Shown in pieces: positions 25,910-38,519 of a DNA stretch of 51,229 nucleotides. A program made the translations under genes and the position numbers. The stretch is from positions 77,316 through 128,544 of the forward strand of contig JAHIYH010000045.1 in the NCBI GenBank assembly GCA_018814875.1, read 5' to 3'. Origin of the DNA: Patescibacteria group bacterium. GTDB taxonomy: Bacteria > Patescibacteriota > Gracilibacteria > Peribacterales > Peribacteraceae. The notes beneath the pieces are model-generated. The model was not told the DNA's origin and ran no database searches. It worked only from the letters and a program-made list of their open reading frames with translations. Each line of letters opens with the position of its first letter. Positions within the stretch are counted from its first letter, which is position 1.

Positions 25910-27247
25910 TTACCTCCTTCTACGCTGATTTGGTCGTCCGCTAGACTTGTCACTTGGTCGTCGTCCGCTAGGTTTGCTGCTATGTCTGTTAGGACTATTA
26001 GATTCACTTGGTTTGCTGCTATGTCTGCTAGGACGCCTTGATCCACTTGGTTTGCTGCTATGTCTGCGAGGATGCCTTGGTTCACTTGGTGCATCTTCCA
26101 TATCAGCATGAGGTGCAGCTTCATGTTTTCGGCGGCGCAATGGTAAGCGCATTAGTCGTTCGATGTCGCGGATGCTGCGGGCCTGTGTAGGTGTTGCAAA
26201 AGAAATAGCCATACCTTCTCGGTCAGCACGTCCTGTACGCCCTATTCGATGAATGTAATCGGATGGATCATCAGGGAGATCGTAGTTTATAACCACCGCG
26301 ATGTTTGTTACATCTATACCACGCGAGGCAATGTCTGTTGCAACCAGCACACGGAATATTCCCTTTTTAAATCCTTCCAGTGATTTACGGCGTTGTACAA
26401 GAGTGCGATTGGAATGGATTTCCGCTGCGCGGATACTTTGGTCGTTAAGTGTGCGTGTGATCTTTTTAGCACCATGCTTTGTGCGTGAGAAAACCAGAAC
26501 TTGTCCTTTATGTTCTTTGAGTAACGAAATGAGAAGTGACTGTTTGTTCTGTTGCCTTACGATTATAACTTCTTGTTCTACCTTTTCGGCTACAGTGCCC
26601 GAAGGTGCAACTTCTATACGAAGTGGCATATGCATCTGAGCGGTTGCGAGCTTAACTATTTCTTGTGCCATTGTTGCGGAAAAGAGCAGTGTCTGACGTT
26701 CGCGTGGGACATGCGCAAGAATACGATTAATTTGTGGTTTGAATCCCATATCCAACATGCGGTCGGCTTCGTCCAGCACCAGAATTTCTACTTCTTTTAA
26801 CGACACTGTCTTTCTTTCCAGATGATCATTAAGTCTGCCGGGGGTAGCAATCAGGATACGTGGATTTCGTTTTATCATTTGCATTTGCAGTCCCATAGAA
26901 GCACCTCCAACAAAGACTGCCGTGCGAATACCAAGGGCAGATGCAAACGGCTGCAGTGCTTCCTCTACCTGATATGCCAACTCGCGTGTTGGGAGTATTA
27001 CTAGCCCTCTCTTCTTCCCTGCTGCCAATTGCTGCAACATAGGGAGCCCAAATGCAAATGTTTTGCCCGTACCCGTTTGTGCTATACCAATAAGATCTTT
27101 TCCTTCTAATGCCTGTCCGATGGCCTGATTCTGAATTGGCGTCGGTTTTGTGATACCTCGTGAATTGAGGACCTTTAAAAGTGCAGGACTTATGCCGATC
27201 TCCTGGAAGCCAGAAGATTGTTGATCAGACTTATCACTGGAATGCAT
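25910..27247 (-). CDS. DEAD-box RNA helicase (RhlE-like) with repetitive RS-rich tail
   Basis: A 445-residue helicase with all standard motifs: Q-motif region (GISPALLKVLNSRGITKPTP and IQ), AQTGTGKT, PTRELAYQ, DEAD at about residue 160, SAT, and HRIGRTGR. The length and motif order fit RhlE-type cold-shock or ribosome-assembly helicases. From about residue 380 the chain becomes a basic low-complexity tail with repeated RHSSKPSG units, which probably bind RNA nonspecifically. Copy number of that tail may vary between strains. The stop codon lies in the adjoining microsatellite. Confidence 0.93.
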   Translation of the reverse strand: MHSSDKSDQQSSGFQEIGISPALLKVLNSRGITKPTPIQNQAIGQALEGKDLIGIAQTGTGKTFAFGLPMLQQLAAGKKRGLVILPTRELAYQVEEALQPFASALGIRTAVFVGGASMGLQMQMIKRNPRILIATPGRLNDHLERKTVSLKEVEILVLDEADRMLDMGFKPQINRILAHVPRERQTLLFSATMAQEIVKLATAQMHMPLRIEVAPSGTVAEKVEQEVIIVRQQNKQSLLISLLKEHKGQVLVFSRTKHGAKKITRTLNDQSIRAAEIHSNRTLVQRRKSLEGFKKGIFRVLVATDIASRGIDVTNIAVVINYDLPDDPSDYIHRIGRTGRADREGMAISFATPTQARSIRDIERLMRLPLRRRKHEAAPHADMEDAPSEPRHPRRHSSKPSGSRRPSRHSSKPSESNSPNRHSSKPSGRRPSDKSSGRPNQRRRR

Positions 27248-27966: not shown

Positions 27967-28392
27967 TTAGGAATCCCCCCAACGAACATCAACTGAATAC
28001 TTAACATAACCATTAAACTCTTTCATAATATCCAGAAATACGGTTTGATCAGGGCTTTTCAAATAATGAACTGTTTCCAAAGTTGAGTATTCGTATCCCT
28101 GCGACTCATATGTATTCCTGTACCAAGCAACAATGTTATTTGCTGTATCTTTTGCACATAAGATACCAACCAAATTTTCATCATAATCGGAATCCATCTC
28201 ATAACCATCCAGTGGAACTGATTTGGGATAAATCACATCAAGAGGAAATTCCTCCGGAAAATATCTCTGATTTTTGCACTCCTCCGGCCACGATGCATCC
28301 GGTTCAATAAGTGGCCCATTTGAGGCTTGTTGAGCGCAGGCAGTGAGAATGAATAACGAAAGGAATGTAAGAGGGAAAATAATTGATCTCAT
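27967..28392 (-). CDS. Hypothetical lipoprotein
   Basis: A 141-residue exported protein from the ATG at 28392 (MRSIIFPLTFLSLFILTACA), which ends in a clear lipobox (LTAC); the Cys would be lipidated. The mature part is acidic with two further Cys (PEECKNQ and GILCAKD) that may form a disulfide. Its start lies one base downstream of the preceding gene's stop, so it is the last gene of the minus-strand secreted-protein series. No known domain is seen. Confidence 0.8.
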   Translation of the reverse strand: MRSIIFPLTFLSLFILTACAQQASNGPLIEPDASWPEECKNQRYFPEEFPLDVIYPKSVPLDGYEMDSDYDENLVGILCAKDTANNIVAWYRNTYESQGYEYSTLETVHYLKSPDQTVFLDIMKEFNGYVKYSVDVRWGDS

Positions 28393-28393
28393 A

Positions 28394-28930
28394 CTATTCA
28401 ATAGTAAGAATAATAGAATGAAGTACCGTTTCAAAACCACCTAAGTTGTTGCTGTAATCAGGCTCACTGCCCATGTAGTTGATAAGAACAATGTTGTTTC
28501 CATGCTTAAGATACACTCCAAGTGGTTCTCCTTCTTCTTCAAACATCGGTTCAGAAGTAACACGAATAGCATTAATACCACCTACTGTAATTTTATCTTT
28601 CCGTATTTCATCACCTCCCATTCCTCCCATAGTCATTTGCTCCACCCATGTATCCAGATCCAGATTGTCGTAATTTTCCAAAACCATTACTTCCATTTTG
28701 ATCCCATCCGGTAGTCCGCCATCACCCGGAGGATTATCAGCAGTAAAGAACTGCAAAATATCAGATTGAGCGCTTCCTCTCATATTCCATTCCGCAGGAT
28801 ATTGAAGGCTATATCCATATTTTGTATTGGCGTAATCTCTGTTGTCATTACCACGCCACTTTGTGGTGAGCGTGTAGACGACGACACCTGCAACGATGAC
28901 AATTACGAGGAATATCAGTGCTTTTTTCAT
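28394..28930 (-). CDS. Membrane-anchored protein with PsbP-like domain
   Basis: A 178-residue protein: N-terminal anchor KALIFLVIVIVAGVVVYTL, then a soluble domain beginning YANTKYGYSLQYPAEWNM, the opening pattern of PsbP/DUF1795-like folds. The opening segment resembles that of the protein at 32262-33194 (YANSRYEFQIDFPSDW), so the two are probably distant paralogues. The domain is common in CPR exported proteins and its ligand is unknown. It is translationally close to both neighbours (1 and 17 bases). Confidence 0.78.
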   Translation of the reverse strand: MKKALIFLVIVIVAGVVVYTLTTKWRGNDNRDYANTKYGYSLQYPAEWNMRGSAQSDILQFFTADNPPGDGGLPDGIKMEVMVLENYDNLDLDTWVEQMTMGGMGGDEIRKDKITVGGINAIRVTSEPMFEEEGEPLGVYLKHGNNIVLINYMGSEPDYSNNLGGFETVLHSIILTIE

Positions 28931-28947
28931 GATTAAAATGGAAGAAA

Positions 28948-30633
28948 TTACACAAACAGCATAAGAATCCCAATAATGAAATTCATTAGAATAAATCCAA
29001 GAATGAACATGCCAATTTTCATGACAACCCCTCGTTTCGATCTGAGCACTTTGCGGATGACATACACCATGCCCAAAATATACAAAACAACAGGAACGAA
29101 TATCGACAAACCTGAATCATCTTCCCACTCTTCCCACCACTCATCCTTAACCTGCGATGCAGGCTCTACGTCCATGTCGTGAGGTAAAGCATCCGGCTCT
29201 ACGGTAATCTGTTCACCAGCAGAAAGAGACACTGACACTGTCTCGTTGAGATCTGTCACATATACTTCTCCCTTTTCAACGTAGAACTTGGAGATCTGCG
29301 TGTCTTCATCGTGTGATGCATGAAGAATTGTGTCTCCGTATTCCGCGCTTGCCACTGGAATTTCAAACACGTCATAAGCAACTTCAAATTCGTAATTATC
29401 ATAGTAGTCATACATAGGTCGGCCTCTTTCAGACCCTCCGGCAATAGCCGTTGGTGTTTTGATAGCGAACTCACATTCACTGGAGACAGGCTTAACCTTG
29501 CTCCATACTTTCCCCCAATACATATCCAAGTACCCAACTTTTAAATTGCTATAGCAATTGCATGGGTTCTTGTGATCCGGGATTTCCAGCTGACTTAAGG
29601 GTCTCATTCTATATATGGCTGAATTAGCAAATTTTACTTCAACCCGACCGTTGCGACTTGTTTTGATTTTGTCGCCTATTGTCATACGTTGCCCTTTGAA
29701 AGCAGGTGCCCATCTGGGAGCATCTTTAGTCATGATTAGAACTTCTCCTTCTATGTGCGTAATAACTGAATAGTTTGAATAGATTTGTGCATTTGCGATG
29801 GGAATACCAAATTCATTGTACGAGAGTGGCTCTGCATCCGGCGGCTGACAGAATGAATTTCCATCTTTGGTAGGTGGTGTAGGAGGTGGAGGTGGTGGAG
29901 GTGGTGGAGGTGGTGGAGGCTGATTAACTGGTGGTGGAGGTGGTTCAGGTGGTCTGAGATCATCTTCATGGACGCACTTGCCACTTTTTGGAACGTAAGG
30001 ATCGGGACAAGAGCACACCCCTGTTCTTTCATTGTAAGTAAAGAGTGAATCTCTGCCGCAGAGTTCGAAGATATGTTTGCATACGCCTCCAACTTTGTAT
30101 TCCTGAGGTCCGCACCCTGGCTCGGGTACATCAGGAACGAGTTTTTTAGCATAGGCCATTAGTTTTGCGGCAAATTCACTCTTACATTTGTTTCCAACTG
30201 CCATTCTGCATTCAATTTGAGTTTTGTCACATGCTTTTCTGCATTCTTCATTCTCGCAAGTATTTCTACATGTACTCCAAGAAGAATTACAGGAATTTAT
30301 TGTAGGGTTTGTGCAATCACCAATAGAAAACCCGAAGCTATGAGCAATGTGCTCCGCACCTTTAAGACAAATATATCCAATATTATTATAGACTTCAGGT
30401 TTATAAATCGTGTCATAACACTGCCATGCATCTAAGTATTCCGAATAATATTTTACAGGATCTCCATCACTAGATTCCCATACTGAAGGATTGTAAAAAT
30501 GATCATATGACCAATCATATTTTACAAGACATGCATTTATAAAATCTTCTCTTGATGGAAGATCTGCTTTTACAACAGAAGCACTGCATATAAATATTAG
30601 TAATGATACCGGGATGAGGAGATATTTTTTCAT
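28948..30633 (-). CDS. FecR-domain surface protein with polyproline linker
   Basis: A 561-residue protein. A signal peptide (LLIPVSLLIFICSASVVKA) is followed by a Cys-rich region to residue ~225 (for example CNSSWSTCRNTCENEECRKA), then a polyproline linker with runs of P, then a FecR-like beta domain (about 285-470: IEGEVLIM, GDKIKTSRNGRVEVKF, IYRMRPLSQLEI). Two hydrophobic helices close the C-terminus (IFVPVVLYILGMVYVI and IGMFILGFILMNFIIGILML). FecR domains in non-iron contexts are thought to bind surface ligands. The protein should be anchored with its Cys-rich head outside. Confidence 0.85.
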   Translation of the reverse strand: MKKYLLIPVSLLIFICSASVVKADLPSREDFINACLVKYDWSYDHFYNPSVWESSDGDPVKYYSEYLDAWQCYDTIYKPEVYNNIGYICLKGAEHIAHSFGFSIGDCTNPTINSCNSSWSTCRNTCENEECRKACDKTQIECRMAVGNKCKSEFAAKLMAYAKKLVPDVPEPGCGPQEYKVGGVCKHIFELCGRDSLFTYNERTGVCSCPDPYVPKSGKCVHEDDLRPPEPPPPPVNQPPPPPPPPPPPPPTPPTKDGNSFCQPPDAEPLSYNEFGIPIANAQIYSNYSVITHIEGEVLIMTKDAPRWAPAFKGQRMTIGDKIKTSRNGRVEVKFANSAIYRMRPLSQLEIPDHKNPCNCYSNLKVGYLDMYWGKVWSKVKPVSSECEFAIKTPTAIAGGSERGRPMYDYYDNYEFEVAYDVFEIPVASAEYGDTILHASHDEDTQISKFYVEKGEVYVTDLNETVSVSLSAGEQITVEPDALPHDMDVEPASQVKDEWWEEWEDDSGLSIFVPVVLYILGMVYVIRKVLRSKRGVVMKIGMFILGFILMNFIIGILMLFV

Positions 30634-30648
30634 GGGAAAAGAAGGAAC

Positions 30649-31308
30649 TTAATTAATGATAAGTTGCAGTGAATCATCTGCTCTATCGTCATACTCCTTA
30701 ATAAATTCAAGCAGATCAATTTTGAGAGCCGGATTGTCGTAATTGTTGTTCTTATCTTCTTCAACATACTGAATGAGCTCTCTGCGCGGAAAATCAAAAC
30801 GTGGGATTACTCTAATTCTCTGCGTTTCATCAGGTTGGCTCTCCCACTTCACTTTGAACCTGATTTCCCGTATATCACATTTTCTGATTATCTCTGAAAA
30901 TGAGCATTTTTCTGTGCTCCCTCCGCACCCCTTCATTGTTGGTTCCCCATCAGTAATCTTTAGTCCATCCGAAGTATAAAAATCAAACCGTACATTCTCC
31001 ATGTCCGTAAGCCACGGCATTATCCGTGCATATACTTCAAACTCTTCACCAAACTTCGCCTGCTTAGCATCCACAAAGTTCATGCTCTTTTGATACCAAC
31101 GTGGCGTGAGGTAATGGAAAGGAATATCTGCCGCTTCACCGGTCAACGGTGTCGGATCTCCCCGTACGCTCTCCCACTTGCCATTACATCCCGCATCGGC
31201 ACCGAGGGGTTTAGGTGGAGGCTCTTCTACAAACAACCACTGCCCAAAGAACGCTACAATTGCAATTGATATAAGGATATATGCCGATATGAATATTCTC
31301 TTCTTCAT
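30649..31308 (-). CDS. Membrane-anchored exported hypothetical protein
   Basis: A 219-residue protein from the ATG at 31308, whose ATGA overlaps the stop codon of the upstream gene, a sign of translational coupling. The N-terminal helix IFISAYILISIAIVAFFGQW is followed by a proline-rich segment and a beta-rich domain with two Cys pairs (CNGKW, GCGGSTEKC, IIRKCDIRE). No family is recognised. It belongs to the secreted-protein series. Confidence 0.75.
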   Translation of the reverse strand: MKKRIFISAYILISIAIVAFFGQWLFVEEPPPKPLGADAGCNGKWESVRGDPTPLTGEAADIPFHYLTPRWYQKSMNFVDAKQAKFGEEFEVYARIMPWLTDMENVRFDFYTSDGLKITDGEPTMKGCGGSTEKCSFSEIIRKCDIREIRFKVKWESQPDETQRIRVIPRFDFPRRELIQYVEEDKNNNYDNPALKIDLLEFIKEYDDRADDSLQLIIN

Positions 31309-31727
31309 ATGCATTCAATCGCATGAATCATCCATAACCCTCCTTCTACAAGCACTACTGTAAATTTCCACATATCCCGCCACCCACCGTGGTACGCACC
31401 TACAACGGTTGCTTCCACCCAATTCATTTGTTCATTGAAGCTGACATCAGTCACTCGGACGTCCTCTGGACCATCCTGAATGCAGTAGGTTGCCGGAATG
31501 AACATGGGGGTAGTGAATTCAGCCGCAAAATCTGGAGTCATAAGTTCTTTCGCTGCATCGTAATCAATGCTAGCACCGGGAATTGAACCAAGTGTAAACT
31601 TCATAAATGCATCGACCGTTGCGGCGGCCTCTTTCAGCGCAGCATCTGAATTGCTCGGTGGTGCTCCGCAAGCGGATAGAACTATGAGTGATAAAACCGA
31701 TATCGCTAGTGTTGTGTAATTTTTCAT
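31305..31727 (-). CDS. Lipoprotein, paralogue of the 31755-32243 product
   Basis: A 140-residue lipoprotein with signal MKNYTTLAISVLSLIVLSAC. The mature domain has an NTF2-like feel: DAFMKFTLGSIPG, LMTPDFAAEFTTPMFIP, YCIQDGPEDV and W-rich C-terminal strands ending HAIECI. Long stretches align with the next upstream gene (TPNFAAEFTEPVFVP, SYCIQNNPDNV), so this is a tandem duplication. Function is unknown. Confidence 0.8.
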   Translation of the reverse strand: MKNYTTLAISVLSLIVLSACGAPPSNSDAALKEAAATVDAFMKFTLGSIPGASIDYDAAKELMTPDFAAEFTTPMFIPATYCIQDGPEDVRVTDVSFNEQMNWVEATVVGAYHGGWRDMWKFTVVLVEGGLWMIHAIECI

Positions 31728-31754
31728 AAGAAAAATGGAAATAAAAGAAGTAAA

Positions 31755-32243
31755 TTATAAATTATTAATTAAATTTTGATACTCCTCATCGAGTAAATAT
31801 ATGCATTCAATACTCTCAATGAGCCATTCGCCACCGTCTGACACCACAAGAGTAAAGAGCCACATGTCCTTCCATGAGTCATCACCATACTTTGCTCTAA
31901 CAAGAGCTTCAGCTCTATGCCAACCGTCATCAAATGTAACGGATGCAACATCTACATTATCCGGATTATTTTGAATGCAGTAACTAGTAGGAACGAAGAC
32001 TGGCTCAGTAAACTCAGCAGCAAAATTTGGCGTGAGCATTGTTTTTGCTTTTGCATATTCGTTGCTATCTCCCGGAACGTGTACCAACGTAAGCTTCATG
32101 TACTCCTCCACAGTATCCTTCACAGTATTTATCTGAATTTCCTCCCACTCATCAGCTGGCTGATCTGGCAAGAATGGACCTATACAACCGACGAGAGCCA
32201 ATGTTGCCAGAATTGAAATTGTAATTGTTGCGTGAATTTTCAT
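31755..32243 (-). CDS. Lipoprotein, paralogue of the 31305-31727 product
   Basis: A 162-residue lipoprotein with signal MKIHATITISILATLALVGC. The mature region mirrors its neighbour: VEEYMKLTLVHVPGD, TMLTPNFAAEFTEPVFVP, CIQNNPDNV and DMWLFTLVVSDGGEWLIESI. It has an extra acidic tail (YLLDEEYQNLINNL). The pair lies head to tail with 27 bases between. The NTF2-like assignment is by pattern and is tentative. Confidence 0.8.
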   Translation of the reverse strand: MKIHATITISILATLALVGCIGPFLPDQPADEWEEIQINTVKDTVEEYMKLTLVHVPGDSNEYAKAKTMLTPNFAAEFTEPVFVPTSYCIQNNPDNVDVASVTFDDGWHRAEALVRAKYGDDSWKDMWLFTLVVSDGGEWLIESIECIYLLDEEYQNLINNL

Positions 32244-32261
32244 GAGTAGGAATGGGGGGAA

Positions 32262-33194
32262 TTATTTTGTACAAAGCCAAACATAACTCTCTCCTGCATC
32301 ATCCATCCAACAATCTTGTTTCGCGCAATTATAGTCTCTGAAACTATCTGGTGGCTGCATAGTTTCTAGTCCTTGTAGATATTCCCATTCTTCATATTCC
32401 AGTTCGCAACTCCACTCGACCATTGTCACTTCAGGCTGGGGTAACACATCGCCTTCTGCTTCTCCTCCACTAAATTCAGAGGGCATTGGGAAGCAATCAT
32501 ATCCTTTACTTTCCAGCTCAATAACCCGAGAAGGCAATCTATTTCTATCCCATGCGTCTTTACTTGTCATTGTCACTTCTGTGTACTTGTCATCATAAAA
32601 AATTTGCCTGTCCTTTAGTGGTGTTAAAACTCCTGACAATAAATCACTGCACGATGCAATATTTGCTTGAGATTCGCCACCTAAATCTACATCTGTACCC
32701 ATACTATCCATCATAATATTAGTGATACTTTCGTATTTATCTCTATGACTTAAAGAATCAAACTTACAAAACACACCAACACCAACATCATCACCTAGTG
32801 CATATTTTGCCTTTTTTATATTTTTGCCCTCATAAAATAGAAGGCGAACAGCAGGTTTGTCGCCAAGCATATCCGGCTCACGTTCAATAACACGCCAATC
32901 GACGACAAGCCAATCTATAAATTCATCCAAGCTTTGTGGATTTCCCTGTTCATTTTGCAGAGCATTCTCAAAACCATATGCATAGCAATACACCTCTTCA
33001 TCAGGCGAATATAACTCTCTTCCTGCATTATTTGTTTCTGCTTCTCCCAAAGTCCAGTCGGATGGAAAATCTATTTGAAATTCATAACGTGAATTCGCAT
33101 ATGTCTGCCATTCACCTGTAGGATAATTTATGAAATATACAGCTAATAAACCCATTATAACTAAAATGGCTAGGACAAAGACAAACTTTTTCAT
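32262..33194 (-). CDS. Membrane-anchored PsbP-like-domain protein with C-terminal Cys region
   Basis: A 310-residue protein with anchor FVFVLAILVIMGLLAVYFI. The domain starting YANSRYEFQIDFPSDW (about residue 32) resembles the one in the 28394-28930 product. From about residue 175 the sequence is unrelated and holds paired Cys (WSCELEYEEW, YNCAKQDCW, WLCTK). A PsbP-like fold is likely for the N-terminal half; the rest is unknown. It is the second gene in the series. Confidence 0.77.
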   Translation of the reverse strand: MKKFVFVLAILVIMGLLAVYFINYPTGEWQTYANSRYEFQIDFPSDWTLGEAETNNAGRELYSPDEEVYCYAYGFENALQNEQGNPQSLDEFIDWLVVDWRVIEREPDMLGDKPAVRLLFYEGKNIKKAKYALGDDVGVGVFCKFDSLSHRDKYESITNIMMDSMGTDVDLGGESQANIASCSDLLSGVLTPLKDRQIFYDDKYTEVTMTSKDAWDRNRLPSRVIELESKGYDCFPMPSEFSGGEAEGDVLPQPEVTMVEWSCELEYEEWEYLQGLETMQPPDSFRDYNCAKQDCWMDDAGESYVWLCTK

Positions 33195-33263
33195 GCGGTA
33201 GGGGGAAAGTATTGATACCTAATATGGAAGTGTACCATTACCTCAATAATAGTAAATGTTTGT

Positions 33264-33536
33264 TTACTCGAATGCGCTCACGCAGTATGCAATTCCTGCA
33301 TCACAGCTAGCTCCACAAGAATACATTCTGGATTTTAGTTCGCATGCCCCTGGATATGCAGAGCACTGAGTATGATCGCAAGCTTCACAATCCGTCGCAT
33401 CACATTCTGCAGTATTTATTTTATTTTTTATTTCAGTTACCCATTCAGGTTCTTCATGTGGTTGAGCATACTCAGAAGCTCCATATATATACACAGCAAT
33501 TAATCCAATAATAATGAGAATGATTATCTTTTTCAT
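33264..33536 (-). CDS. Small Cys-rich membrane-anchored protein
   Basis: A 90-residue protein: N-terminal helix IIILIIIGLIAVYIYG, then an exported portion with eight Cys (CDATDCEACDHTQC, CELKSRMYSCGASC, AYC), enough for four disulfides. The ATG at 33536 is the most upstream of the eight-gene minus-strand series, so the promoter should lie at about 33540-33600. The Cys spacing matches no toxin or known knot I can name. Confidence 0.72.
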   Translation of the reverse strand: MKKIIILIIIGLIAVYIYGASEYAQPHEEPEWVTEIKNKINTAECDATDCEACDHTQCSAYPGACELKSRMYSCGASCDAGIAYCVSAFE

Positions 33537-33701
33537 GTGGATCAGTGTATCACTTTTATATTGCCTGATGCCAATTTGCTATTTTGGAATGAGGTGGGAC
33601 GGTCCTCCTTCGTCCGTCTCCGCTTACGGCTACGACGAGACTACGGCGAGCCACGGGAGTTGCTAATAAATTCTGGAAATCTGGAGTTTGTAATTTTATT
33701 C
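33537..33701. repeat. Palindromic element next to the integration boundary
   Basis: GACGGTCCTCCTTCGTCCGT and CTCCGCTTACGGCTACGACG lie at about 33598-33645, followed by GAGACTACGGCGAGCC. They belong to the short palindrome family of the window. The sequence immediately before 33702 (TTTTATTC) would be the original flank of the tRNA-Tyr 3' end before integration. Confidence 0.5.
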
Positions 33702-33804
33702 TGGTGGGGCGCCTTCGCGCAAATCCGAACCGATTTTAACACGAACCGGCGCGGCGGCTGAAAAATTCGCACCCGCAGCCGCCGCACATTCCTTACCGTT
33801 GTAG
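33702..33804. repeat. Left attachment site (attL) with 103-bp arm
   Basis: TGGTGGG then GCGCCTTCGCGC and onward to GTTGTAG is a perfect 103-bp inverted copy of 35777-35879. The match ends abruptly at both sides. Read with its left flank this is flank-core-arm C, the combination expected of attL. Confidence 0.75.
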
Positions 33805-33850
33805 GACGATTTCCAACTGTTCTTTTGCTACAAAAGAAGCTAGGGGCACA

Positions 33851-34498
33851 TCATTTATTATCACATCTTGAAGCAACTTTTGGCCATTTCATAACCAAAT
33901 CCTCGTAAACCGGTTTCCAATTTTCTTCTCTTACTTCTTCGTCTGTCACTGTGAAATTAAGGTCTTTCCCAAGTTTGTTTGCATGGAGCCTATATGCGTT
34001 GAAAAAGTTTCGCTCGGAGGAAGTGTATGCAAGGCCTGTGAGTTTATGCATAAGTTTCATTTCAATAAAACCAAAAATGTGGTTATCGATTAATGTGGCT
34101 AGAATTCTGCCAATGAAAAAGAATATCACTGCCTTCCAACCCAATAGCAACAAGCCTGTTACAGCTATGATAGCTGAATACAGCCCAAATCCATGGAAAT
34201 AGCTGTACCAAACACCCAGTGTAGGAATGCCAGGGAAAATGTAGAAACCGTAAGAGGTTATAAGACCCCCAATTCCTGTAGCCATGAATGCAAAAACACC
34301 GATGAAGAAAGGGTCGAGACGAAAAGCAAAGCACACAAGGCCAGTGACAGTACCAAGTAGGCTGGGAATCAGCTCCAAACCCTCGGTCATTTTTAGCACC
34401 TTAAATGCATCTACCTTTGGATAGAGTCGCGCCATGAGAGCAAAAGCATGATCTGCCTTAACTCTAAGTCTGAGCCCGCGAGGTGTATAGACTGTCAT
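33851..34498 (-). CDS. Hypothetical integral membrane protein (element cargo)
   Basis: A 215-residue protein with four likely transmembrane helices (LIPSLLGTVTGLVCFAF, FFIGVFAFMATGIGGLITSY, LYSAIIAVTGLLLLGW and VIFFFIGRILATLI) and a soluble basic N-terminus and C-terminus. No domain is recognised. It sits just inside attL of the element and is divergent from the next cargo gene. Function is unknown; membrane exclusion or signalling roles would be speculation. Confidence 0.65.
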   Translation of the reverse strand: MTVYTPRGLRLRVKADHAFALMARLYPKVDAFKVLKMTEGLELIPSLLGTVTGLVCFAFRLDPFFIGVFAFMATGIGGLITSYGFYIFPGIPTLGVWYSYFHGFGLYSAIIAVTGLLLLGWKAVIFFFIGRILATLIDNHIFGFIEMKLMHKLTGLAYTSSERNFFNAYRLHANKLGKDLNFTVTDEEVREENWKPVYEDLVMKWPKVASRCDNK

Positions 34499-34537
34499 AC
34501 AAACGACATGCAGGATTGCATACTTAACAATTTAACT

Positions 34538-34966
34538 ATGCCAAGTATACAGGCAAGAGAGGCAACATTCGAGACTTTCTATGATTTTCTTAAAAATCAA
34601 CAATGCTTGGGAAGATATGGTGAAATGGTATACAATGAGTTCATGGCTCTTACCGCTAAATTCAAAAGCTCTGCAGATATCTATCAAGATTATCTAGACG
34701 ATGATCTGGTAGATGAAATGAAAAAACGAGGATATGTTTTCCTATCTTTTTCATGGGTCAACGACAATCCCCCTCATCCCACCCCATCTTGGAGATCTAT
34801 TCTATACAACATTGGAGAAGAAGATGATTTTGATGGAGATTTTGCTGAAAAAGACCCAGCTTTTACAGTTACTCACAAGGAATCGAATATCACTGTAACT
34901 GGAAATGGTTCTGTTTCTGTCATGTCAGAACTATGGATAAAACTAAAAGATGCAGGATTTATATAA
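34538..34966 (+). CDS. Hypothetical soluble protein (element cargo)
   Basis: A 142-residue protein from the ATG at 34538 (MPSIQAREATFETFYDFL); an ATG at 34508 would add 10 residues and lie only 9 bases from the divergent gene. It is rich in aromatic and acidic residues (YQDYLDDDLVDEMKKRGYVF, then GEEDDFDGDFAEKD). No domain is recognised. It is the only plus-strand cargo gene beside the recombinase and ends 10 bases from the convergent gene. Confidence 0.6.
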   Translation: MPSIQAREATFETFYDFLKNQQCLGRYGEMVYNEFMALTAKFKSSADIYQDYLDDDLVDEMKKRGYVFLSFSWVNDNPPHPTPSWRSILYNIGEEDDFDGDFAEKDPAFTVTHKESNITVTGNGSVSVMSELWIKLKDAGFI

Positions 34967-34976
34967 ACCTCTTCAG

Positions 34977-35675
34977 CTATCGAAGTCCTACCATATGCAA
35001 GAGATGTTTTAGAATGTTTATTGCACGTCGTTTGATTATTTGACCTGTATGCCGAATTAAGGGCATCAGACGAAACTTTTTGAGTTCGCGAATTGAATTC
35101 CCAAATGTCCAGCGAAGCCCAATTTCTCGTCGATCATGCTGACTTCCTTCTTCGGCAAATAGAGTACCATCAATATCTTCAAAGAGAAGCTGATAGACAT
35201 ATCCAGGGGATGTACTTAGTTCGCTAAATATCTTTTCGTCTGGGGTTCCAACGATAGGAAAATCGATCTCAACCATTAGTGGTAGAGCACTTCGAGGTTC
35301 TAAGTGAAAAGGAACATCAACAGATTTTCTACTGCTAGTCTCAATAAATGGACCATTTACATGACCAAAACGAAGTGTTGAATTCTTTCTTTTATTTTTC
35401 CAAACAGTAAGATAAACGTGAGTGATTGTATTAGGCGCATGGCTACGATTAACAAGTGTGAACGAAAACTTACCCTTAAAGAATATCAATTTGTCATGTT
35501 TTTGTAATCCATATGTTACTTTCTTGTTAAGTGCTCCGATCCTTGGTCGCATTCTAATATTACTTGCAATTGTGTAAAACAATGCAAACCAACCTGCCAA
35601 TGCTCCTGATGCAATGAAAATTTTCTTTGCTTCTTGTAGAAGAGGAGAAAACGATTCTATATCGAAGTTGAGCAT
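34977..35675 (-). CDS. Membrane-anchored hypothetical protein (element cargo)
   Basis: A 232-residue protein with one N-terminal helix (IFIASGALAGWFALFYTIAS) and a beta-rich region (LIFFKGKFSFTLVNRSHAPN, ITHVYLTVWKNK) followed by a basic helical C-terminus (ELKKFRLMPLIRHTGQIIKR). No family is recognised. Its start lies 53 bases from a fragment that still reads as a recombinase C-terminal motif on the same strand, so its promoter region is built on relic DNA. Confidence 0.62.
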   Translation of the reverse strand: MLNFDIESFSPLLQEAKKIFIASGALAGWFALFYTIASNIRMRPRIGALNKKVTYGLQKHDKLIFFKGKFSFTLVNRSHAPNTITHVYLTVWKNKRKNSTLRFGHVNGPFIETSSRKSVDVPFHLEPRSALPLMVEIDFPIVGTPDEKIFSELSTSPGYVYQLLFEDIDGTLFAEEGSQHDRREIGLRWTFGNSIRELKKFRLMPLIRHTGQIIKRRAINILKHLLHMVGLR

Positions 35676-35727
35676 ATGATCATTATACGCAATAAAAATT
35701 TCATTAATAGAAAGCCCGACGCTGGCG

Positions 35728-35952
35728 AAAACAAAGTTCGTTCCGATCGTTTTTATCAGGCTCTTTTGCGGTTTTGCTACAACGGTAAGGAATGTGCGGC
35801 GGCTGCGGGTGCGAATTTTTCAGCCGCCGCGCCGGTTCGTGTTAAAATCGGTTCGGATTTGCGCGAAGGCGCCCCACCATCCGCGAAATCCGCGCGATTT
35901 CGCCAATACGCGCCATCCTATTTTGGCTTCCCATTGCACCGCGTTCCCTTTC
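35728..35952 (-). repeat. Internal inverted attP-like site with relic recombinase 3' end
   Basis: On the minus strand, 35952-35873 is an 80-bp perfect copy of 37351-37430, joined at the shared core TGGTGGG to a 103-bp perfect copy of 33702-33804. This arm B-core-arm C order is what attP should be. A further 28 bp (35728-35755) matches the inverse of 37323-37350 (recombinase codons for KTIGTNFV) but sits on the other side of arm C, so a second recombinase remnant is also present. Confidence 0.75.
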
Positions 35953-35989
35953 GTACGCCAGCGGCGGGCTTTTCTGATACCCTGTTTAC

Positions 35990-37516
35990 ATGAAAGTTAT
36001 CGCATACGTTCGTAAGTCTACAGAGCAGGAAGACAGACAAATTTTATCTATTGATGCTCAACTTCGCGAGTTGAGCGATTATGCCGCAAAAGAACAGTTG
36101 GAAATCGTCGCCTCGTTGTGCGAGGCCAAAACCGCAAAAGAGCCCGGGCGAATCGAATTCGCCAGAATGTTGGAAATTGTAGAGAAGGGAGGAGCAGAAG
36201 GCATCCTCGCATGGCACCCTGACAGGCTCGCTAGGAACTCTGTGGATGGAGGGAAGATTATGCACCTTTTGGACACAGGCAAACTTAAAGCACTGAAGTT
36301 CCCGACTTTCTGGTTTGAGCCGACTCCACAAGGAAAGTTCATGCTGAACATTGCCTTTGGTCAGTCCAAGTATTACGTGGACAATCTTGCCGAGAATGTG
36401 AAGCGTGGCATGCGCGAGAAAGTGCGCCGTGGCGAGTGGACGTGGCCTGCTCCGCTTGGTTACATCAATAACCGAGAAAAGCGAAACATTGAGCCTGATT
36501 CAGAGAAGGCACCACTCGTTCGCAAGGCATTTAAACTCTACGCCACAGGAGAGCACACGTTTCTCTCGTTGCGCAATGAACTAACCAGACTCGGACTACT
36601 GACGCGCAAAGACAAGGTGCTGCCAGTGTCCAATGTCCAGAAGATGTTGCAACACCACGTCTACTACGGTGTGATCAGCATGAACGGTGAGCTGTTCCCC
36701 GGCGTATTCGAGCCGATTGTGAGCAAGAGACTGTTCGACGAGGTGCAGGTAATGATGCGAAGCAAGAGCAAACCGAAGAGGAGAAGAAAACATGAGTTTC
36801 CATTTGCCAGTTTTTTACACTGCGCTACTTGCGAATGCGCCATCTCTGCTGAAATTCAGAAGGGGCATCATTACTACCGATGCACTCACAAGCGCGGTCC
36901 GTGTGATCAGCGCAAGTACTTGCGTGAAAAAGGCTTGCTTGAGCAGGTACGTAAAATCGTCGAACAAGTCTCTCTGCCCGATGAATGGGCGGATAACATG
37001 CTGCGAGAACTCGACAAAGAGGAATCATCCGAAAAATCGGATCATCGGGTAACTGCTGCACATCTTGAGGATGAGCGAAAACAGATAGACATACAGCTTG
37101 ATGATCTCCTCGATTTACGATTGGAAGCCGCACTCAATACCGAGGAATATCTTGCAAAGAAAAACAAGCTGGTGTCACGTAAATTAGAGATTGATCAAGA
37201 GATCAAGGACGCTGAACAGAATCATTCTAATTGGCTCGAACCCATGCGAGAGATGATAATGCGCAGTCGTGAAGCCAAAAAATTGCTCTCGACCGAAAAT
37301 CATTCAGAATTTCCAACATTCTTAAAAACGATCGGAACGAACTTTGTTTTGAAAGGGAACGCGGTGCAATGGGAAGCCAAAATAGGATGGCGCGTATTGG
37401 CGAAATCGCGCGGATTTCGCGGATGGTGGGCCGGGAGGGATTCGAACCCCCGAAGTCGGAGACATCTGGTTTACAGCCAGACCCGTTTGACCACTTCGGT
37501 ACCGACCCACAGTTGA
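35990..37516 (+). CDS. Large serine recombinase (integrase/resolvase family)
   Basis: A 508-residue large serine recombinase. The catalytic domain has Ser10 in YVRKST and the DRLARN arginines near 79-82. The recombinase domain follows (YINNREKRNIEPD to ~265), then a zinc ribbon (Cys278, 281, 298 and 305) and a coiled coil (about 340-400). Such enzymes cut attP and attB with a 2-base stagger via Ser-linked DNA. From residue 481 the frame runs through antisense tRNA-Tyr, giving a 28-residue tail that is an integration product. In the reconstructed circular form it would instead end GAFAQIRTDFNTNRRGG, 497 residues in all. The ATG at 35990 follows directly after the inverted attP-like site. Confidence 0.92.
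   Translation: MKVIAYVRKSTEQEDRQILSIDAQLRELSDYAAKEQLEIVASLCEAKTAKEPGRIEFARMLEIVEKGGAEGILAWHPDRLARNSVDGGKIMHLLDTGKLKALKFPTFWFEPTPQGKFMLNIAFGQSKYYVDNLAENVKRGMREKVRRGEWTWPAPLGYINNREKRNIEPDSEKAPLVRKAFKLYATGEHTFLSLRNELTRLGLLTRKDKVLPVSNVQKMLQHHVYYGVISMNGELFPGVFEPIVSKRLFDEVQVMMRSKSKPKRRRKHEFPFASFLHCATCECAISAEIQKGHHYYRCTHKRGPCDQRKYLREKGLLEQVRKIVEQVSLPDEWADNMLRELDKEESSEKSDHRVTAAHLEDERKQIDIQLDDLLDLRLEAALNTEEYLAKKNKLVSRKLEIDQEIKDAEQNHSNWLEPMREMIMRSREAKKLLSTENHSEFPTFLKTIGTNFVLKGNAVQWEAKIGWRVLAKSRGFRGWWAGRDSNPRSRRHLVYSQTRLTTSVPTHS
37351..37430. repeat. Right attachment site (attR) with 80-bp arm
   Basis: The last recombinase codons (GAAAGGGAACGCGGTGCAAT onward) and the core TGGTGGG are a perfect 80-bp inverted copy of 35873-35952. 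The match stops exactly where the sequence enters the tRNA acceptor stem (37431), giving arm B-core-tRNA, the combination expected of attR. Confidence 0.78.
37427..37508 (-). tRNA. tRNA-Tyr (GTA)
   Basis: An 82-base class II tRNA on the minus strand. The acceptor GGGTCGG (37508-37502) pairs with CCGGCCC (37434-37428), the discriminator is A (37427), and CCA is encoded (37426-37424). The anticodon GTA is at 37474-37472 in the loop CTGTAAA. The extra arm is long, as in bacterial tRNA-Tyr, and the T loop is TTCGAAT. All stems look intact. Its 3' end is the recombinase attachment core. Confidence 0.96.
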
Positions 37517-38205: not shown

Positions 38206-38432
38206 GGTCTGGAAAGGATTCCCGCCTTCGCATTGCTTCGCAATGGCTACGGTGGGCAGGCGAACCCCCGAAGTCGGAGACATCCCTGTCGGCCATAGCT
38301 CGTAGCGAAGCGGAGAGCGACGGCTGATGGTTTACCACTGTCGCACATGTGCGACGTGGTTTACAGCCAGACCCGTTTGCCTGCCAGCCATAGCCCCAGA
38401 GGGCGGAGGCTGGACCACTTCGGTACCGACCC
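38206..38432 (-). pseudogene. tRNA-Tyr pseudogene split by four insertions
   Basis: Pieces of the tRNA-Tyr at 37427-37508 recur in order over 227 bases: CCGACCC end (38426-38432), TACCGAAGTGGT, CAAACGGGTCTGGCT with the GTA anticodon, GATGTCTCCGACTTCGGGGG and a decayed acceptor. Inserts interrupt the D arm (38380-38413), the anticodon arm (38336-38364, with TGGTTTAC duplicated), the anticodon/variable region (38285-38327) and the T loop (about 38222-38260). The acceptor has two mismatches and the discriminator is lost. It cannot fold as a normal tRNA. Confidence 0.85.
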
Positions 38433-38519
38433 ACGTTGACCATACTATAGACAGGTTTGTTGAAAGCGCAACAATCTGAGTTATAACATTTAAACTCTTA
38501 TTATCATTTATTAACAAAT

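Follow-up and report, generated by a model that had tools for sequence, protein, structure and literature searches.

A 51,229-nt stretch of genomic DNA from a bacterium of the Patescibacteria group (contig JAHIYH010000045.1 of assembly GCA_018814875.1; the whole stretch is referred to as the window) carries an integrated element with a serine integrase gene (int) at a tRNA-Tyr gene. Besides the attachment (att) sites at its two ends, this element, like its relatives in other genomes, retains an intact but inverted copy of the predicted attP just upstream of int. This copy is one of several abutting inverted blocks, the partners of which lie in the int leader, within the int coding sequence and at both ends of the element. 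The int coding sequence itself is rich in inverted matches, and the whole arrangement suggests a gene that has been shaped to fold as DNA.

The core sequence TGGTGGG occurs at 33702-33708 and 37424-37430 on the plus strand, and its inverted copy, CCCACCA, at 35873-35879. In a self-comparison, the DNA around the inverted core was found to be the perfect reverse complement of the two outer copies, over 103 nt for the core with arm C and over 80 nt for the core with arm B (100% identity in both cases; the 83-nt hit returned by a repeat tool is the same 80-nt repeat including one mismatch). Repeats this long within 3.7 kb are far beyond chance, and the 176-bp attP was matched only at these three sites in the whole 1.42-Mb genome of 70 contigs. 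The original prediction, made from the letters of this DNA, had read the three cores and their identical arms as the attL, attP and attR of a serine integrase, and the orientations of the cores together with the perfect arms support this assignment at the CCA end of tRNA-Tyr. Because the core is the complement of the final seven bases of the tRNA-Tyr(GTA) gene (CCCACCA), the tRNA stays whole after integration, as had been proposed. The class of the enzyme was borne out by the Resolvase (PF00239), Recombinase (PF07508) and zinc ribbon (PF13408) domains, the last of which scored slightly under its cut-off. The best NCBIfam matches, CcrB, CcrA and XisF, were each far under cut-off, and relatives of the integrase in the PDB include YokA. 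Judged by the records closest to its integrase, the host is related to Candidatus Peregrinibacteria and Peribacteria. The int frame extends through attR into the tRNA gene (37351-37516), so the C-terminus of the integrase would differ between the integrated and circular forms.

An integrated serine-integrase element is expected to hold attL and attR only. This expectation fails here, as an intact inverted attP is present in the integrated element (Table 1) and is conserved in relatives. Three more perfect inverted blocks, which the original prediction had missed, abut or nearly abut one of the arms. The simple attL/attP/attR account is therefore incomplete, because the inverted attP is a conserved feature and only one of several inverted blocks reaching into int.

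Conservation of this arrangement was examined in 80 loci with related integrases, taken from public genomes as the best matches to one query. The block mosaic is widespread, being shared by about 60 of the checked relatives, most of which are Patescibacteria. In the approximately 310 bp upstream of int, reverse complements of the int leader, of two segments within the int coding sequence and of the two ends of the element abut one another and follow toward int in the order A', i28', i20', arm C', core, arm B', A and the start codon. The partner of A' is segment A of the leader, that of i28' is int nt ~1334-1361, and that of i20' is int nt 137-156, while arm C' matches the far end of the element and arm B' the int 3' end, an inverted copy of which lies just upstream of int in most loci with enough flank. 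Among the 64 loci with an upstream flank of 330 bp or more, i28' was found in 59, i20' in 57, A in 57 and arm B in 60, counts that are not independent since the elements have a common ancestry. The gap between A' and i28' is only 0-1 nt in 38 of 57 loci, and that between i28' and i20' is equally short in 38. At the other end of the element, a c24-type block complementary to int nt ~90-119 stands beside arm C in 44 of 45 complete elements and always stops near int nt 119, whereas a control stretch of int was found there in none of the 45. The inverted attP and the blocks keep their sequence and position while int drops to approximately 50% identity. At codon third positions, i20 and i20' covary, with the pairs C-G, T-A and A-T seen 12, 10 and 2 times at one position and C-G and T-A seen 11 and 12 times at another. 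The integrase gene points at the tRNA in all 59 loci with i28', and the flipped layout was found in none. These comparisons show that the family retains an intact, inverted, predicted attP upstream of int, built of abutting reverse complements. Four loci (L015, L016, L095 and L097) form a more distant clade with another order of the inverted blocks and the same pairing principle.

Pairing within int was assessed in 71 non-redundant int genes against codon shuffles that preserve the protein and the codon counts. Inverted exact matches of at least 12 nt numbered 5.28 per gene on average, compared with 0.11 after shuffling, and all 71 genes exceeded their own null, while direct matches stayed near the null (0.41 versus 0.23). 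At 23 other serine-integrase loci, mostly from the same host family and including a few repeats of one gene, inverted matches were rare (0.13 versus 0.07). Helices recur at the same positions, among them one between nt 733-748 and 971-986 (56 of 71 genes) and one between nt 173-188 and 1318-1333 (50 of 71). The latter shows 58 double-substitution cells, and its Watson-Crick cells number 723, against a shuffled mean of 643 and a shuffled maximum of 658; the former is among the helices that hardly vary and are uninformative on covariation. The int gene of the window, taken alone, has few exact 12-mer inverted matches (1 versus 0.07), so its evidence lies in the blocks and in the fold z-scores. 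With 7-12 codon shuffles per test, these z-scores ranged from -2.3 to -17 for the int genes of the family, on both strands and with either RNA or DNA parameters. For the int gene of the window they were -3.9 and -4.8 with RNA parameters and -8.3 and -7.7 with DNA parameters, whereas two non-family integrases (L019 and L023) had fold energies at or above those of their codon shuffles (z near 0 or positive). It should be noted that one of two ordinary genes of the window also gave z = -3.9 on one strand with few shuffles, and that lone z-scores around this value are weak ground. An RNAalifold consensus over 24 aligned int genes yielded weak structure only, because the helices shift between clades, and per-gene counts were used for this reason. 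No structure was found in the cargo genes. Taken together, the excess over the codon shuffles shows what appears to be selection for self-pairing in the int coding sequence, and the fold is well supported.

Pairing at the RNA level would favor G-U. The mismatches among 3768 pairs of the int helices comprise 19 G-T, 25 A-C and 48 others, and those in blocks A, i28 and i20 comprise 16, 37 and 43, respectively, whereas the tRNA acceptor stems of the same loci gave 27 G-T, one A-C and one other. Given the covariation at third positions and the lack of G-U wobble, unlike in the tRNA stems, selection appears to act on folded DNA and not on RNA. The slight excess of A-C over G-T hints that the strand opposite int may be the one that folds, although this is a weak test on related sequences. 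G-T pairs are only weakly maintained in the genomes of single-stranded DNA (ssDNA) viruses compared with G-U in RNA (PMC6993869).

The role of the fold is inferred. In what we regard as the best model, and hold about as likely as not, the element passes through ssDNA and the internal attP then holds the two ends together as a duplex attP, as in the phage CTXphi. The single-stranded stage could be a lagging-strand template, DNA imported by competence, or a circle. In such a strand, the internal attP would pair with arm B and the core of attR and with the core and arm C of attL, acting as a splint that would bring the ends together, with a double-stranded attP core formed at the center of a braced structure. 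This pairing would account for the two attP copies having remained identical and for the constant orientation of int toward the tRNA. As deduced from the block order, the block boundaries would coincide as three-way junctions, namely arm B/A/i28, i28/i20/internal int fold, and i20/arm C/c24, where i24 and i20 are separated by approximately 17 nt of int, while the cargo would hang from the remaining open junction. The block helices cross, so the whole would be a pseudoknot. The integrase would thereby be offered a duplex attP within a single strand of DNA, and attP could be rebuilt from the integrated copy without a separate excision factor. The full proposal, in which int supplies a conserved three-dimensional single-strand scaffold, attP serves as the splint and the serine integrase uses the folded strand without an excision factor, is one that we put forward tentatively. 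One locus, L103, has an open reading frame (ORF) in the usual cargo slot and a second cargo ORF between A and int, together with a 44-nt perfect c24 block; its two cargo slots would correspond to the two strands of one open junction.

Several points weigh against this proposal. The duplex of attP and its inverted copy, the A/c24 helices and the i20/i28 helices can coexist only as a three-dimensional pseudoknot, which would need a duplex of approximately 180 bp to be bridged by approximately 48 bp of helices. Serine integrases act on duplex sites with double-strand cleavage, and no helper for making ssDNA is encoded by the element. The constant orientation of int could also be explained by selection against the flipped layout. 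Moreover, the loci come mostly from draft metagenome assemblies and are best matches to one query.

Among the other explanations, the fold may have been selected as DNA for the protection, compaction or uptake of ssDNA, for instance in competence, and not as a recombination substrate. We consider this unlikely, although several observations speak for it: the fold covers the int coding sequence far past the att sites, both strands fold about equally, as expected if either may enter, the elements are small and have no transfer genes, and ComEC is present in the genome of the window and in an isolate with an element, Schleiferia thermophila DSM 21410. However, ComEC is widespread, so that its presence is weak evidence, and protection or uptake leaves unexplained the exact inverted attP including its core and the blocks that abut the att arms precisely. 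The lack of structure in the cargo also counts against it. If the pairing instead acted in RNA, through a fold of leader and coding sequence that controls int expression or through an RNA intermediate, the inclusion of the int leader and coding sequence among the blocks would be natural, as these are typical places of RNA control. We find this improbable, since G-U is no commoner than A-C in the helices while the tRNA stems show 27 to 1, the two strands fold to the same degree, c24 and arm C are found beyond the cargo at the opposite end of the element and outside a simple int transcript, and the upstream region holds no Rfam family (only the tRNA was found).

It has also to be considered that the two attP copies might drive flip-flop inversion on a double-stranded circle, for amplification or phase variation, as such a circle would have two identical inverted sites that split the cargo half from the int half. 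Inversion, or the use of either attP, predicts the flipped arrangement in about half of the loci, whereas its absence from all 59 loci with i28', together with the int-internal pairs that inversion would not explain, makes this very improbable. To our knowledge, recombination between two attP sites is not a normal reaction of serine integrases, which counts against it further. An ordinary integrated element with an inverted attP that arose by chance duplication or assembly error is hardly credible. Short-read assembly can go wrong at inverted repeats, and the repeat lies close to the end of several contigs, but the layout recurs, with covariation, in dozens of independent assemblies including that of the Schleiferia isolate, and we rejected this explanation on the basis of that recurrence.

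The empty target site was sought in relatives. The original prediction had expected an attB with TTTTATTC to the left of TGGTGGG. Element-free relatives have TGGTGGG-CCGGGAGG with unrelated DNA alongside and none of the arms, so the prediction withstands the refuting check that it had set for the arms. The exact left half, TTTTATTC, was not found, since that flank differs in every relative seen; in G003, a genome of the same genus, the empty site reads GGATTGTG-TGGTGGG-CCGGGAGG. The same DEAD-box helicase gene (25910-27247 in the window) lies near tRNA-Tyr in both G003 and G002, likewise a congener, indicating that the locus is syntenic and empty there. From this gene to tRNA-Tyr the distance is approximately 1.3 kb in the two relatives and approximately 10 kb in the window. 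Between the helicase gene and the element lies a series of small lipoprotein-like genes (27967-33536), which may be another insertion given the short distance in G002 and G003.

The family consists of small elements that insert at the 3' ends of tRNA genes. Complete elements are 2.4-7.4 kb long (median 2.9 kb), and 63 of 81 loci have a tRNA gene immediately downstream of int, the targets being tRNAs for Ser (20), Leu (11), Tyr (6), Lys (6), Gln (6), Arg (4) and others. L059 is the sole locus with a tRNA gene (Trp) just upstream of int, and no arms were found there. An element usually carries from one to a few cargo genes, which differ per element and often belong to restriction-modification or other defense systems; the cargo ORFs of the window element had no family match, and no replication initiator or capsid gene was recognized in the cargo scanned. 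Searches of phage and plasmid collections gave no match at E 1e-60, and those of viral contigs only two partial matches. Terminal repeats marking circular contigs were found in none of 13 contigs tested; one 3520-bp contig (L060) runs exactly core to core and may be an excised circle or a mere assembly break. The genome of the window has a second member at tRNA-Gln (L128, G000:C58:3500-12000), with the same blocks and an integrase of approximately 60% identity. The element in S. thermophila DSM 21410 (L037), a member of Bacteroidota, is at tRNA-Ser(GCT) on a contig that also has Bacteroidota type IX secretion signals.

Table 1. Features of the integrated element and its target gene, in window coordinates.
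Feature	Position	Strand	Remark
Integrated element, core to core, 3729 bp	33702..37430	+	att repeats; tRNA-Tyr empty in congeners
attL: core TGGTGGG and arm C, 103 bp	33702..33804	+	perfect reverse complement of 35777-35879
Block c24, 24 nt, abuts arm C	33805..33828	+	pairs with int 36086-36109
Cargo ORF, 215 aa, hydrophobic	33851..34498	-	no family match
Cargo ORF, 172 aa	34448..34966	+	no family match
Cargo ORF, 232 aa	34977..35675	-	no family match
Block A'	35709..35727	+	imperfect reverse complement of int leader A
Block i28', 28 nt	35728..35755	+	perfect reverse complement of int 37323-37350
Block i20', 18 nt	35759..35776	+	perfect reverse complement of int 36127-36144
Intact attP copy, internal and inverted (minus strand: arm B-core-arm C)	35777..35952	-	kept in relatives
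Block A, segment of int leader	35956..35975	+	partner of A'
ORF for the serine integrase, 508 aa when integrated, coding sequence with predicted ssDNA structure	35990..37516	+	domains; fold z-scores
i24, segment of int	36086..36109	+	partner of c24
i20, segment of int	36127..36144	+	partner of i20'
Base of internal int fold, 15 bp with 37308-37322	36164..36178	+	helix in 50/71 genes
Pairing partner of 36164-36178 in the 15-bp internal int helix	37308..37322	+	
i28, segment of int	37323..37350	+	partner of i28'
attR: arm B (3' end of int) and core	37351..37430	+	perfect reverse complement of 35873-35952
tRNA-Tyr(GTA), target gene	37424..37508	-	core rebuilds its 3' end

Near the element, a second tRNA-Tyr gene at 38250-38434 (minus strand) is broken into three pieces by hairpin-rich inserts of 33 and 72 nt, and its acceptor end is altered. 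Hairpin-rich, repeat-like DNA in the style of these inserts is also found just left of attL (33600-33665), and pieces matching the broken gene occur close to the tRNA-Tyr of G021, a genome of a different genus (contig C29, 62352-62438).

If the proposed folding is true, a protein-coding gene would have been shaped across many bacterial phyla to double as a scaffold of folded DNA, and an enzyme type thought to be duplex-only, the serine integrase, would work on or through ssDNA. The elements would then also be a described vehicle that moves defense and other genes in Patescibacteria, which are mostly unculturable, and a source of compact integrases with built-in targeting of tRNA genes. Because one element resides in the isolate S. 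thermophila DSM 21410, the idea is testable in culture.

No description of such self-folding elements was found in the literature searched, which did not include preprints and most subscription journals; to that extent the design appears to be new, and the integrase class itself is well known. The domain order of the protein is the same as in phiC31, Bxb1, YokA of SPbeta, and CcrA/B of SCC elements, whereas those elements have one attP and none when integrated, and folding of the coding sequence is absent from the 23 other serine-integrase loci tested. Integron cassettes, too, are mobile and hold one or few cargo genes, and they are recombined via a folded single strand, as would be the case here. 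Integrons, however, rely on a fixed platform with a tyrosine integrase and on arrays of attC sites, while each unit of this family has its own serine integrase, inserts at a tRNA gene, with a single unit at each tRNA among the loci read, and would carry its cargo in a junction of the fold. Inverted recombination sites divide the circle in two, as in the yeast 2-micron plasmid, which differs in its recombinase class; no inverted isomer was seen among the 59 loci with i28', and the likeness leaves the coding pairing unexplained. Coding DNA under selection for base pairing, in which G-T pairs contribute weakly or not at all, is known from ssDNA viruses (PMC6993869), in contrast to which the present element is integrative, has no capsid or replication gene that we could see, and includes its attachment sites in the fold. 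In CTXphi, an inverted attP1/attP2 pair in the single-stranded genome gives rise to a duplex attP (PMC3089051), and the element likewise has two inverted attP copies that can pair with each other within one strand. CTXphi relies on the host tyrosine recombinases XerC and XerD, dif-like sites and a hairpin of approximately 150 nt, whereas the element, which has no phage genes, combines a serine integrase with a core at the 3' end of a tRNA gene, near-perfect arms of approximately 80-130 bp, and pairing that extends through int.

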